Source: a virus. From it: a stretch of DNA of 38,879 nt. The notes beneath the pieces are model-generated. The model had not been told where the DNA came from, made no database searches, and saw only the letters and a program-made list of their open reading frames with translations. Below, piece after piece: positions 6,033 to 32,406 of this stretch (positions are counted from its first letter, which is position 1; each line of letters begins with the position of its first letter). The position numbers and the translations under genes are program-made. The DNA is taken from IMG/VR virus record IMGVR_UViG_3300027834_000295, positions 1 through 38,879 of that record; one strand, written 5' to 3'.

Positions 6033-6409
6033 GCTGTAATCCCCCGCGCGGCAAGGTGGTCGCGCCATTTGATGTCGGAGATCTGCTCGTGGAACTCCAT
6101 GCGCGTCACAGGGCCGGGGAATTTTCCCCTGTATGAATCGCAGAGGCTCTGGAACTCGCCACTATTACCCCACTCCTCTCGGATCGGCGGGTATCCATCG
6201 TCAAAATCATAGAAGCTAAATCCAGCGTCAGACTCGTATTGCTTCCATAGGGCTTCGCAGTCATCGTGGATGCGGAGGCTGTAAACGTAATCGTATTTGC
6301 ATGTAGACTTGCGGTGCGCCTCGCCCGGCACGATCCATCCGCCGCAATGGAAGCAACGGTGGTGCTTTCGGGCGCGGGGGCGCTCATCGGAGATAAGCTC
6401 AACGCTCAT
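6029..6409 (-). CDS. Zinc-binding treble-clef-like phage protein
   Basis: A 126-residue protein whose N-terminal half holds C19-x2-C22 (RCFHCGGWIVPGEAH), C37, and H48-x2-C51 (IHDDC). The pattern R-K-x-H-x-C-x2-C-G-x-x-I-x-P-G with a later H-x2-C is a common phage zinc-binding family of unknown function. The C-terminal half is Trp/Phe-rich and may bind a partner. ATGA overlaps with both neighbours place it firmly in the operon. Confidence 0.78.
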   Translation of the reverse strand: MSVELISDERPRARKHHRCFHCGGWIVPGEAHRKSTCKYDYVYSLRIHDDCEALWKQYESDAGFSFYDFDDGYPPIREEWGNSGEFQSLCDSYRGKFPGPVTRMEFHEQISDIKWRDHLAARGITA

Positions 6410-10088: not shown

Positions 10089-12254
10089 GTGGTGCCGGAA
10101 AACAATGTGACCATCGCAGATGCAGACGAAATCCGGCGCGATCTGGAATACATGACCGCGCGCTGGCATGAGCTGGACACAGCCGCCGTCTTTGAAATCC
10201 GCGCCTTCAAGGAAGATTGCCCCCCGAAATCCGCCAAGTTCTCGCCAGACTGGATGGATGACGCCGTTGAGTGGTGCGAGTCCATGAACGGTCTGGGCTA
10301 CAACATCTATTGCGTCAGAAACCCGATCCGCCACAACGCAGGATCCGGCAGCGCATCGGACGGCGACATTCTCGCAGCCTTCTTTCTCTGGGCGGATTGC
10401 GATGATACCGAATCCGCCAGCAACGTGAAACGGTTCGACGGCCCGAAATACTCCGCCGCCGTCACCACGGGTCGCACCCCAAGCACCCGCGTTCACGTCT
10501 ATTGGCAGCTTGAAGAACCATGCACGGATATGGCGGCATGGCGGGCCATGCAGTCGCGCATCGCCACGCATTTCAATTCAGACAGGGCCGTCATCAACCC
10601 ATCGCGAATCATGCGCGTCGGCGGCACGGTGTCATACCCGTTCAAGAAAAAGCAGGAAAAGGGATACGTCAAGGAACTGACCACCATCCGCACCGAATAC
10701 CCTGACGCCCGTGAGCGCGTCACGATGGAGCAGATGGACCGGGTGTTCGCAGACGCGCCCCAGAACGCCGCACAGCCCGCTACAGGGGCCTTGCAGATAG
10801 ACACGGGGCCGCAGCCGCTGGATCGCGCCCTTGCCGCCGCAAACATCATGGCAGGCACGGACTGGCGTGAGAACGTCAAGAAGCTGGTGGCGTCCTACGT
10901 GGCGCGCGGATGGACAGACGACGAGATTATCGGGCGGTGCCTCGCCTTCACCCTGCCGGGGTGGACGCAAGACGAAACAGCTCAGGACGTGGCGGCGTTC
11001 ATCAAGTGGACCCGCGAACAGGAGGCCAGGAGCGGCGGGCAATATGCCGTCAGTCCTGAAGCCAACGGCGATGACCACCAATTCCGGGAAATGACGGATG
11101 AAGAAAAGGACGCCGTTGAACCCATGCTGTTTGAGCCGTGGGGGAATCGCGACCTTGCAGCAATTCCATATCCCGAATTTGTATATTCTGATTTCTACGC
11201 TCGGGGCTACACGTCCGTAACGCTGGCACCGCCCAAGGTCGGCAAGTCCATGCTGGGGCTAGCAGAGGCGCTGGACATGGCATCCGGCGCAGGCATTCTG
11301 ACCGGCGATCAGCGCGACAAGATGCGCGTGGTCTACTACAACGCGGAAGACGATCAGAACGTCATTGATAGCCGCGTGGCGGCGCTTCTCGGCTTCTATA
11401 AGATCGACCAGACCGAAATCGCGGAAACGCTGTTTCCGGTTTCCGGTGTCGAGCGCGATGATTTTTTCATGATTTCAGGGCAGGATGGCGTCATCAATGA
11501 ACGCCTGTTCGTGGCCCTCGAAAAGTTCATCGAGGCGCAGCGCGCGGACGTTCTGATATTTGACCCGCTGCAAGACCTTTCGCACAGCCCGGAAACGAAT
11601 GAGGTGTTCCGGCTTCTCGGGCAGCGCCTGCGCCGCATGGCGGCAAAGACGGGCGTTGCACTCGGGCTTATCCATCACACGCGCAAGATAGCACCGGGGC
11701 AGACCGCCACCATAGAAGACGGGCGCGGCGGTAGCGCACTGCGCGGAACCGCCCGCTTTAACCGCCTTCTGGTCAGCATGACGGAAGATGAGGCGGCAAA
11801 GGCAGGCGTTGAAAACCATCGCCACTTCATGCGGATCGGTGACATTGAAAGCAACCTCGCGCCGCCTTCATCTGACGTGAACAGGTGGTTTGAAAAGATA
11901 TCAGTCACCATCCCCAATGGTCGGGATGTGGGGGCTATCCGCACTTGGAACTGGCCTGACGCATTTGATGGCATAACGCGCCAGCATGCGGGGCGGGTTC
12001 GCGCACTGGTTGATCAGTCCCTGACGCCACCACGCTATGACATCCGGGCATCCGCCTGGGTCGGGGAGCTTGTGGCGGACGCAACGGGCCTCAATCTGGC
12101 AGACAAGAACCACAAGGCCCGCATCAAGACCATCGTGGATAAATGGATTGAAAGTGACGTTCTCAGGGTCACTGAAGAAGAAGACAAGCGCGCCGGACGC
12201 ACCCGCAAGGTCGTGATTTGCGGCTCAAATGATCCACTTCAGGAGGCGCGCTGA
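10089..12254 (+). CDS. Primase-helicase fusion (RepB-type primase plus RepA-type ATPase)
   Basis: Replication initiator/helicase of 721 residues. The N-terminal part (about 30-220) resembles RepB/prim-pol-type primases: FFLWADCDD (DxD acidic site), RVHVYWQLEEP (conserved His), and INPSRIMRVGGTVSYP. The C-terminal part is a RecA-fold ATPase: Walker A APPKVGKS near residue 385, YYNAEDD, Walker B VLIFDPLQDL near 490, GLIHHTRK, then GGSALRGTARFN, as in hexameric RepA helicases. GTG 10089 is chosen because GAGGG lies 8 bases upstream; TTG 10074 lacks a site. It probably opens and primes the candidate origin lying just after it. Confidence 0.87.
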   Translation: MVPENNVTIADADEIRRDLEYMTARWHELDTAAVFEIRAFKEDCPPKSAKFSPDWMDDAVEWCESMNGLGYNIYCVRNPIRHNAGSGSASDGDILAAFFLWADCDDTESASNVKRFDGPKYSAAVTTGRTPSTRVHVYWQLEEPCTDMAAWRAMQSRIATHFNSDRAVINPSRIMRVGGTVSYPFKKKQEKGYVKELTTIRTEYPDARERVTMEQMDRVFADAPQNAAQPATGALQIDTGPQPLDRALAAANIMAGTDWRENVKKLVASYVARGWTDDEIIGRCLAFTLPGWTQDETAQDVAAFIKWTREQEARSGGQYAVSPEANGDDHQFREMTDEEKDAVEPMLFEPWGNRDLAAIPYPEFVYSDFYARGYTSVTLAPPKVGKSMLGLAEALDMASGAGILTGDQRDKMRVVYYNAEDDQNVIDSRVAALLGFYKIDQTEIAETLFPVSGVERDDFFMISGQDGVINERLFVALEKFIEAQRADVLIFDPLQDLSHSPETNEVFRLLGQRLRRMAAKTGVALGLIHHTRKIAPGQTATIEDGRGGSALRGTARFNRLLVSMTEDEAAKAGVENHRHFMRIGDIESNLAPPSSDVNRWFEKISVTIPNGRDVGAIRTWNWPDAFDGITRQHAGRVRALVDQSLTPPRYDIRASAWVGELVADATGLNLADKNHKARIKTIVDKWIESDVLRVTEEEDKRAGRTRKVVICGSNDPLQEAR

Positions 12255-12439
12255 TGACCGGTATTTCCACAGTCTTCCACAGTCTTCCACAGTTCACCAC
12301 ACCAACTGTGGAACACTCCCCGCGCCCCACCACCACAGTTTCCCTGTGGGGTGTGGGGAGTGTGTGGTGGAAGCGTGGAAATCAAAAAAATCGTTCATCG
12401 CACACACACAGTCCCACAGTTCAGGAGAAATCGGCATGA
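12254..12439 (+). CDS. Possible small ORF spanning the candidate origin
   Basis: A 61-residue peptide rich in His, Thr, Ser and Pro. It has an excellent AGGAGG 7 bases before its ATG and ATGA overlaps at both ends, which argue for translation. However, it is encoded by the repeat/dyad cluster, so its sequence is largely dictated by DNA repeats. It may be a functional peptide, or simply a way to carry ribosomes across the origin. Confidence 0.42.
   Translation: MTGISTVFHSLPQFTTPTVEHSPRPTTTVSLWGVGSVWWKRGNQKNRSSHTHSPTVQEKSA
12263..12369. repeat. Candidate replication origin: phased DnaA-box-like repeats and a long dyad
   Basis: Three direct copies of a 9-mer (ATTTCCACA at 12263, TCTTCCACA at 12273 and 12283) lie exactly 10 bases apart, with an inverted copy at 12307-12315. 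Each is one mismatch from the DnaA box TTWTNCACA. They are followed by a nested dyad: CACCACAC (12296-12303) with GTGTGGTG (12362-12369), ACACT (12313-12317) with AGTGT (12359-12363), CCCCAC with GTGGGG (12325-12330/12353-12358), and CCACAG with CTGTGG (12333-12338/12344-12349). Position directly after the primase-helicase suits an origin. Confidence 0.6.
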
Positions 12440-12669: not shown

Positions 12670-13244
12670 ACAAGCGCCCCCGCCGCCAGAAAAAGGGCGA
12701 CCGTCTCCTGGATCGGGACGCCACGCAAAATGAAATCATGTGCGACAAGGCCGTCGCGGTGATGGATCGTCTCGCCATCCAGATGGATGAACGCTGGGGC
12801 GTGGATCGCCTGCCCGAACTGGTCAGCATCGAGACCGCTCAGAAATACGGGGCGGCACTCGCCAAGCTCAACGCCGCACTGAAAGCTGGCGACCCCAAGG
12901 AGGTCGCGCATCGGGCGCAGGTCTGCATGAGGGGCCTCAAGGCGATGAACGACGAAGCCGAGGCAGCGGGCCAGCCCAAGGCATCCGCCGATTATTGGGA
13001 ATACGATATCGACGGCTTCAAGTTCGCCGTGATGAAGGACGGCGGGCATTGGATGGCCTGCAAGGACGCAAGGCCGGATCTGCGGTTCTTCACCATGCGC
13101 GAAATCGGCGTGGCGCTGCGCGCCCTGAATATCGACAACCCGATCTTTGCCGAAATCAAGAAACACTTCCCGCAAGCCCAGATCGACAGCATCGCGGAAC
13201 GGGCGACCGACCGCGAAACGCTGGACGATCCAATCCCCTGGTAA
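12666..13244 (+). CDS. Replication-operon protein, unknown
   Basis: A 192-residue protein with a very basic N-terminus (NKRPRRQKKGDRLLDRD) that could contact DNA, a helical middle (about 45-105), and a beta-type section YWEYDIDGFKFAVMKDGGHWMACKDARPDLRFFTMREIG. The last residues are acidic (RETLDDPIPW). The length and order look like a genuine phage gene with conserved style, but I cannot name its function. ATGA overlap upstream. Confidence 0.74.
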   Translation: MNKRPRRQKKGDRLLDRDATQNEIMCDKAVAVMDRLAIQMDERWGVDRLPELVSIETAQKYGAALAKLNAALKAGDPKEVAHRAQVCMRGLKAMNDEAEAAGQPKASADYWEYDIDGFKFAVMKDGGHWMACKDARPDLRFFTMREIGVALRALNIDNPIFAEIKKHFPQAQIDSIAERATDRETLDDPIPW

Positions 13245-13256
13245 GGAGGCCAGACC

Positions 13257-13637
13257 ATGCTTCAATCACAACGCGACACCACCCGGCTCTGCCAGAAGTT
13301 CACCGAGCCGCGACGGGTCAAGCCATTCGACAGCTACAGCCAGGACGAGCTGCGCTTTCGCATGATGGAACTGGACGGGTGCAACGGGCGCTTGCCGCCG
13401 GACCCACGCCCGCTATCCGGCGAATCCGCCCGCGCAAGTTCCGAGGTCAAGCGCCGCCGCATGGAGATTGCCGACGCGATACGCAAGGCAGGCGTGATGA
13501 CGCTTCCCGATGTCCGCGAGGTGTTCCCGCATGTGAATCCAGAGTCGATCAAGAGCGACCTGCGCCGCCTCAAGGCCGAGGGCGTTCTCAGCAACAGGCA
13601 CATCGCCAGCAACGTTTGGGAATGGAGGGCGGCGTGA
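13257..13637 (+). CDS. Winged-helix-like DNA-binding protein
   Basis: A 126-residue basic protein. Residues about 70-125 (IADAIRKAGVMTLPDVREVFPHVNPESIKSDLRRLKAEGVLSNRHI...WEW) read as a winged helix: three helices with the V-N-P-E-S-I-K-S-D-L-R-R-L recognition region and a beta hairpin. The N-terminal half contains an S-Y-S-Q-D-E-L-R-F-R-M-M-E-L helix. An AAGGAGG precedes the ATG. It may regulate later genes or assist replication; this is inference. Confidence 0.72.
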   Translation: MLQSQRDTTRLCQKFTEPRRVKPFDSYSQDELRFRMMELDGCNGRLPPDPRPLSGESARASSEVKRRRMEIADAIRKAGVMTLPDVREVFPHVNPESIKSDLRRLKAEGVLSNRHIASNVWEWRAA

Positions 13638-14440
13638 TGAATCCTTACACCTTGCCCGACCGCAACGTGCATATTGCTTTTAGCGGTGGTCGCACCAGCG
13701 CCTATATGCTGCATCAGATTCTTGAGGCCAACGGTGGATTGCCGGATCGGGTGCGCGTGGTCTTTGCAAACACCGGGCGAGAAATGCCTGAAACGTTGGA
13801 CTTTGTGCAGGAGTGCGGCAGTCGATGGGGCGTCCCGATTGTATGGGTCCAGTATATCCCAGTAGACCCGTGGTTTGAGGTTGTCAGCCACAACAGCGCA
13901 GCGCGCGACGGTGAGCCGTTTGAAGCGATGATTCGCCACAAGCGGTATATTCCGAACGGTCGTAAGCGCATCTGCACCGATCAATTAAAGGTCCGGACCG
14001 CAAAGCGGATGCTTGTGGCGGAAGGCTGGAAGTCATGGGTGAAGGCGCTTGGAATTCGCGCCGACGAACCTGACCGGCACGACATGCCAGACCAGCCACG
14101 CGAACGGATATGGATGCCCATTGTTGACGCTGGCGTTACTCGTGATGTGGTGATGCGGTTCTGGCGTGGGCAACCGTTCGACTTGCCTGCTGGAACCGTC
14201 AGCAACTGCCGCCTGTGCTTCCAGTTTCAGCGAGCCAAGCTGGCGTTTCAGATGCTCAACGACCCGAAAGACGACTGGCCTGAGCGCATGGAGGCAATCG
14301 GCCTTGGTACGTTTCTGGGTGATCGACCTTGGCGTGAGTTCCGGGCGGCAGTCGAGGCACAAGGCGATCTTTTGATTGATTGGAAGGAGCCAGCGCGCTC
14401 GCCATGCGGCGCAGCAATGGACGGGGAGTGTGTTGGATGA
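13637..14440 (+). CDS. PAPS reductase-like PP-loop enzyme
   Basis: A 267-residue member of the adenine-nucleotide alpha-hydrolase (PP-loop) superfamily, nearest in style to phosphoadenosine phosphosulfate reductase-like proteins. The PP-loop SGGRTSAYM is at 16-24, followed by VVFANTGREMPETLDFV. Cysteines C113 (RICTDQ), C191 and C194 (NCRLC), and C257 and C265 near the end could bind an iron-sulphur cluster or carry sulphur. Phage copies are often annotated this way without a known substrate. The start shares a base with the previous stop (TGATG). It is coupled to the next gene, suggesting a shared nucleotide- or nucleic-acid-modifying role. Confidence 0.87.
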   Translation: MNPYTLPDRNVHIAFSGGRTSAYMLHQILEANGGLPDRVRVVFANTGREMPETLDFVQECGSRWGVPIVWVQYIPVDPWFEVVSHNSAARDGEPFEAMIRHKRYIPNGRKRICTDQLKVRTAKRMLVAEGWKSWVKALGIRADEPDRHDMPDQPRERIWMPIVDAGVTRDVVMRFWRGQPFDLPAGTVSNCRLCFQFQRAKLAFQMLNDPKDDWPERMEAIGLGTFLGDRPWREFRAAVEAQGDLLIDWKEPARSPCGAAMDGECVG

Positions 14441-31517: not shown

Positions 31518-32406
31518 GCCGAGAAATGGCGCGGGCGTTTACAGCCTGCCAGCGGGTTATGCCGCGACATCAAACGCAACGGCGACGGCAAGCCAGCACA
31601 ATGACCCCTTGGAGGACATTGAGGCCGACGCCAACGCTGCGCGCCCGATTTCCGCAGGCGGCACAGGTGCGACATCTGCCAGCGCGGCGCGGACGGCTTT
31701 GGTGGTTCCGGGCAAGTCGGCATCTGAAACGATTGACGGAGACTGGACAGTTTCTGGCGACTGGACCATTTCCGGCGATCCAGCCTTTACCGGTAGTCCT
31801 GACTTTTCGGGCGTAGGGAACGCGGCGACAATTCGCAGCGATCTGGGCGTCCAGGCGGCAGCGGATCGGCTCAACGCGACGGCTTTGGACTTCTTGGCAA
31901 CGGCTGATGCGTCGAGCGATGCGGCGGTTGAGTTTACGCAGTTGGACGACACCAAATACGACGCTTACGAGATCGTCTTGAACAACGTTATCCCGGCGAC
32001 AGACGATGTGCATCTGTATATCCGCACGTCCACTGATGGCGGGTCGAGCTACGACAGTGGCGCATCGGCTTATGGCTGGGAGGCGCGCGGGGGAGGTGCG
32101 AATGTCGGCAACGATCAAGCCGACAATGCAATCAGGCTGACCGATACCGGGACGGCCAACGCGGTTGGGTCTGCGGCAGGTGAGGGTGGCGTTTCGGGGC
32201 GGTTGTTCCTGCCCGGACCTAACCTCGCAAAAAACACGATGATTTCATTCGAGCTGACGATTCAGAACGCTGCCGGAAACATCATCAAGGTGTCTGGCGG
32301 CGGCGCGCGCCTTTCGGCGGCTGACGTAGACGCGGTGCAGATCCTTTTCGCCAGCGGCAACATCGAAAGCGGGACAATCACACTCTACGGGCTGAGGAAT
32401 GCATGA
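31516..32406 (+). CDS. Tail fibre/appendage protein
   Basis: A 296-residue protein beginning MPRNGAGVYSLPAGYAATSNATATASQHNDPLEDIEADANAARPISAGGTGATSASAARTAL, the typical virion-attachment start of podophage fibres. The C-terminal half is beta-rich (YEIVLNNVIPATDDVHLYIRTSTDGGSSYDSG... NIESGTITLYGLRNA), resembling a lectin or galactose-binding-like jelly roll. AAGGAG lies 7 bases before the ATG. Likely a receptor-binding or fibre-base component. Confidence 0.83.
   Translation: MPRNGAGVYSLPAGYAATSNATATASQHNDPLEDIEADANAARPISAGGTGATSASAARTALVVPGKSASETIDGDWTVSGDWTISGDPAFTGSPDFSGVGNAATIRSDLGVQAAADRLNATALDFLATADASSDAAVEFTQLDDTKYDAYEIVLNNVIPATDDVHLYIRTSTDGGSSYDSGASAYGWEARGGGANVGNDQADNAIRLTDTGTANAVGSAAGEGGVSGRLFLPGPNLAKNTMISFELTIQNAAGNIIKVSGGGARLSAADVDAVQILFASGNIESGTITLYGLRNA

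Follow-up and report, generated by a model that had tools for sequence, protein, structure and literature searches.

The question raised by this locus is what occupies the 181-bp gap (12255-12435) between the gene of a primase-helicase (10089-12254) and a 77-aa gene starting at 12436 in a viral DNA of 38,879 nucleotides, the whole of which was analysed and is called the window. The initial annotation placed a candidate replication origin here. From the comparison with related loci, we conclude that positions 12263-12420 probably serve the phage as its replication origin, with the product of the preceding primase-helicase gene as the reader. The features of the locus are the following.

10089-12254, plus strand: primase-helicase and proposed initiator, 721 aa, with a PrimPol-like N-terminal domain, a RepA-type RecA-fold helicase, and a C-terminal winged helix
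11952-12251, plus strand: C-terminal winged-helix domain, residues 622-721, the proposed iteron reader (AlphaFold model, structural matches, word tracking)
12265-12274, plus strand: iteron 1, TTCCACAGTC
12275-12284, plus strand: iteron 2, TTCCACAGTC
12285-12294, plus strand: iteron 3, TTCCACAGTT
12304-12313, minus strand: inverted iteron copy with an ACTGTGG core, which pairs with iteron 3
12313-12363, no strand: central GC hairpin, with an equivalent hairpin in most relatives
12333-12339: further CCACAGT inside the central GC hairpin
at the loop of the central GC hairpin: CCCTGTGGGG
12263-12382, no strand: outer dyad, which encloses both hairpins (from the fold)
12414-12420, plus strand: distal CCACAGT copy, just ahead of the next gene

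The array comprises three 10-bp repeats at 12265-12294 with the consensus TTCCACAGTY, that is TTCCACAGT(C/T). The repeats were annotated as spaced exactly 10 bases apart, accompanied by one inverted copy and placed directly after the primase-helicase gene. All of this was confirmed: the three copies stand in exact register, the inverted copy lies at 12304-12313, and the gene ends at 12254, with the first iteron at 12265. The annotated element (12263-12369) starts correctly but ends about 50 bases short, as a further copy is found at 12414-12420. Folded as single-strand DNA, the gap reached -38.9 kcal/mol (z = -4.2), and no shuffled sequence equalled it. The fold contains two hairpins (arms 12286-12294/12304-12312 and 12313-12330/12346-12363) within an outer stem (12263-12280/12367-12382), in agreement with the multi-part nested inverted repeat described previously.

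Among short-period signals (lags of 5 to 30), none in the window is stronger than the lag-10 run at 12265-12301. It scored 20.4, whereas the best score in 20 shuffled windows was 13.8. The second strongest such signal is an 18-bp periodic stretch at 31738-31811 in a tail-fibre-like gene. Allowing at most one mismatch, TTCCACAGTC has five matches in the window, four of them inside one 50-bp stretch of the array. The GC skew across the window tracks gene direction and marks no origin, and no nucleotide similarity to the window was found in named phages. Shortly past the element, the ORF at 12995-14440 contains a phosphoadenosine phosphosulfate reductase-like domain (residues 215-433) and is a gene of the host-takeover type. 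Additionally, the 67-aa ORF at 7890-8093 matches many phage proteins annotated as nucleotide kinase, in a C-terminal segment, and it may represent a free-standing domain.

The protein encoded upstream has the composition expected of an iteron-origin initiator, as it combines a helicase with a predicted terminal DNA-binding domain, and its gene lies beside tandem short repeats. The helicase domain matched Pfam AAA_25 (E 7e-25), residues 358-603 matched RSF1010 RepA (1g8y, E 9e-13), and residues 84-180 matched the PrimPol AEP domain (6zp9, E 5e-6). The motor is thus of the RecA-fold RepA type, and the SF3 helicase of a pRN1-type replicon is absent. Nor is the arrangement that of RSF1010 (IncQ), with separate RepC and RepB' genes; the primase-like and predicted DNA-binding domains are located in the helicase chain. 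The AlphaFold model of the C-terminal domain (pLDDT 89) has a helix-helix-helix-strand-strand order with winged-helix topology, and its best structural alignments were to winged-helix proteins, RecQ-family RQC domains first, with Z of about 8. The sequence search of this domain against solved structures gave no significant match, and all Foldseek E-values were above 0.01; therefore, the winged-helix assignment rests on topology and structural alignment. The full-length model had a mean pLDDT of 60 and was used solely as a hint of the C-terminal fold.

Homologues of the helicase were gathered from viral contigs and genomes, mostly of Rhodobacterales and other Alphaproteobacteria, as well as from plasmids and named phages. 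In nearly all relatives, the same plan directly follows the helicase stop codon: three to four tandem copies of a word at a step of 9-11 bp, an inverted copy, a GC hairpin with the same word in its arms, and one or two more distal copies. Phages, prophages, and plasmids, mainly of Alphaproteobacteria, all include examples of this layout behind a homologue of the helicase gene. For 31 of the 33 loci, the count of the most repeated 7-mer was above that in all 40 shuffles. In a second set of loci, fetched later from genomes, it exceeded all 30 shuffles in 15 of 23, and the remaining eight fell below this threshold; several elements of the later set are degenerate forms, and three loci (L082, L083, and L086) have no clear element. 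The exact helical phasing proposed initially for the array holds across the family, as autocorrelation over the first 65 bases in 52 elements is highest at lag 10 (0.396; other lags give about 0.25-0.32). In 37 of the 52 elements, a strict regular expression detected a loop rich in T/A between runs of C and G; this loop is common, not universal, and so is not proposed as a fixed motif.

Some loci depart from this plan. One (L018) has an extra small gene between the helicase and the element, and the iteron array comes after that gene. Two others (L017 and L045) have a small gene after the helicase stop, and their sole 10-bp signal lies several hundred bases downstream. The distant relative RHph_X2_26 showed no iterons after the helicase when inspected by eye. 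In the Microcystis phage Mae-Yong1326-1 (L061), words of the TGCGCCAGT type were seen by eye, direct and inverted, after the helicase stop at 6149, downstream of a RecA-family ATPase gene; a cyanobacterial host is unusual for this origin family.

The element is also present on circular plasmids. The plasmid pVL1_6 of Methylobacterium indicum encodes ParA and a RepA helicase preceded by a separate TOPRIM gene, and it keeps the element. Its annotated genes and the ten proteins that were scanned, a set that covers part of the small proteins, include no other recognised Rep, and no terminase or capsid gene is annotated on it. This occurrence indirectly favours a capacity of the element for autonomous replication. 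In two further loci (L010 and L012), the N-terminal part of the protein is a different module, and the element is still present. The element thus accompanies the helicase and winged helix, whichever primase type is present. A Rhodoplanes phage-plasmid carries the element with its own word, TGCGTCACCTT. Two Microvirga plasmids (L058 and L059) are weaker cases, and one of them has RepBC. A protein of about 410-424 aa is common to both (25932-27206 in L059 and 30837-32063 in L058; 29% identity), and its L059 copy gave a weak MarR/TrmB-like helix-turn-helix match; this protein could be another replication initiator.

The repeated word is consistent within each element and differs between elements. 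The words include CCACAGT, CCACACCT, CCGCACCT, CCGCAGGT, CCCCACCT, TGCACCCACCT, TGCTCCAGT, TGCGCCACCT, TGCGTCACCT, and CCCTACATA, among others. Recurrence of the tandem-array word in the distal part of its own element scored 81.3, compared with a mean of 14.4 and a maximum of 41.7 in 20000 permutations. We then compared word similarity with protein identity by Mantel tests, in which phylogeny is not fully removed. With motor similarity controlled for, words resembled each other more where the last 100 residues were more identical (partial r 0.33, p 0.0002); with the C-terminus controlled for, no significant relation to the motor was left (r 0.06, p 0.19). For instance, the motors of L047 and L048 are 87% identical, their winged helices are 65% identical, and their words are TGCACCCACCT and CCCCCACCT. 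In Gemmobacter nectariphilus DSM 15620, two loci (L021/L043 and L044) have the same word, TTCCACACCT, so co-resident copies need not differ. The anatomy of the element, its conservation, the coordinated change of the word, the protein domains, and the correlation of the word with the winged helix were shown computationally.

The helicase is encoded in 36 of 36 loci, and the next independent gene family occurs near the element in at most ten; because homology to the helicase guided the selection of loci, its presence in all of them is to some extent a product of the sampling. The distribution nevertheless argues against a reader encoded by some other conserved neighbour. The second option of the initial annotation, in which the primase-helicase itself binds the iterons, appears better supported, since its gene is the only one common to all loci and the word tracks its winged helix.

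The first option of that annotation was that the repeats are DnaA boxes, here weak ones at which host DnaA would open the dyad, and we regard such a DnaA-dependent origin as highly improbable. Every box is one mismatch from TTWTNCACA, as annotated, and L003 has one perfect TTATCCACA; however, L003 is the only one of 52 elements with an exact box. The window contains 28 one-mismatch sites against 31.9 expected, hence no enrichment, and no exact TTWTNCACA site, whereas a DnaA-box origin would have several consensus boxes. The words CCGCACCT, TGCTCCAGT, CCCCACCT, and TGCGTCACCT of homologous elements are unlike DnaA boxes, the first three being unrelated to them, and a near-invariant host protein cannot account for a word that differs between phages of related hosts. 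The DnaA identity was therefore abandoned. The proposal of a replication origin as such is favoured by the comparative evidence.

An operator or partition site, where a repressor or a ParB/CopG-like protein would occupy the iterons and control downstream genes or segregation, is unlikely. Operators and centromeres commonly contain short phased repeats together with inverted copies, but no regulator or downstream gene is common to the loci, the scan for sigma-70 promoters found none, and the word tracks the helicase winged helix. Moreover, the sole relative of the downstream 77-aa protein among viral contigs comes from its own near-identical contig. The helicase could act as a regulator from the element in a second role. 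The GC-rich hairpin straight after the stop codon and the stable fold would suit a transcription terminator or a structured RNA ending the helicase transcript, a reading that we consider very unlikely given that no terminator call, T-run, or Rfam match was obtained. Neither the fixed 10-bp tandem copies nor the distal copies are needed by a terminator, and the same word stands in both orientations. Finally, repeats and dyads are also features of packaging or integration sites (pac, cos, attP). Such a site is extremely improbable here, as the terminase is 4.7 kb away, the integrase lies at 1-963, no terminase or integrase family is common to the loci, and the element is kept on pVL1_6, where no terminase or capsid gene is annotated.

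For the element as an origin read by its own primase-helicase, we infer binding, unwinding, priming, and replication in the following manner. The C-terminal winged helix of the primase-helicase would bind the 10-bp iterons and their inverted copies as double-stranded DNA, and several initiator molecules would align on one helix face at the phased iterons. The aligned initiators would strain the DNA and load the RepA-type helicase ring at the adjoining dyad. The opened strand would expose the hairpin, near which the PrimPol domain, or a TOPRIM domain in other branches, would lay the first primer, and host polymerase would then take over.

Several known systems resemble this scheme in part. In the SaPI and SCCmec Cch2 initiators, the C-terminal domain reads iterons directly downstream of its own gene, the SCCmec origin being putative (PMC7581432). 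The order of an initiator helicase gene followed directly by short iterons is the same here; however, their helicase is DUF927 or D5/Primase_Cterm instead of a RepA-type RecA fold, and a conserved GC hairpin that contains the word forms part of the element here. In pRN1, a single protein (ORF904) contains an AEP primase, a helicase, and a winged helix. Downstream of its gene lies a stem-loop of about 100 bp that is essential, and the loop sequence diverges while the fold is kept (PMC4234260). The domain combination and the downstream hairpin are thus shared with pRN1, which differs in its SF3 helicase and in having no iterons. P4 alpha consists of a primase, a helicase, and a C-terminal winged helix binding origin repeats, and it was described together with RSF1010 as a scheme related to pRN1 (PMC4234260). 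P4 alpha is likened to the present protein by this description, not by sequence, and its primase is TOPRIM. The P4 alpha helicase is SF3-type.

At the RSF1010 oriV (RepA, RepB', RepC), RepA exposes hairpins, and it is there that the AEP primase begins, according to the literature compared. Iterons, hairpins, and an AEP primase are found in both systems, and the helicase is sequence-related to RepA. In RSF1010, three proteins are used, whereas here the primase, the helicase, and the proposed DNA reader form one chain; likewise, the RSF1010 iterons are 20 bp long, and those here are 10 bp. By analogy, the best explanation is that the element would operate in the manner of SaPI Rep-ori, P4 alpha, or pRN1 and use RSF1010-like chemistry. 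The origin family appears to combine features of the SaPI/SCCmec, pRN1, P4, and RSF1010 schemes with a RepA-type motor. No description of it was found in the literature searched, the coverage of which was incomplete.

Tentatively, and with less than even confidence, we propose that these loci may form an undescribed large origin family of alphaproteobacterial phages, prophages, and phage-plasmids. In this family, the winged helix and the word would diversify together and fast, with the motor and hairpin fixed, driven by the avoidance of cross-initiation between co-resident replicons. If the co-diversification reading is true, the family would provide a natural recognition code for one winged-helix fold. 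The compact origin and its proposed reader come in dozens of natural variants with a recognition word visible by eye, so domain and iteron swaps could be used to test initiator-origin co-evolution, replicon incompatibility, and DNA recognition by winged helices. Additionally, the layout offers a simple rule for locating origins in unclassified alphaproteobacterial phages, and it would link the three-protein RSF1010 scheme to single-chain initiators.
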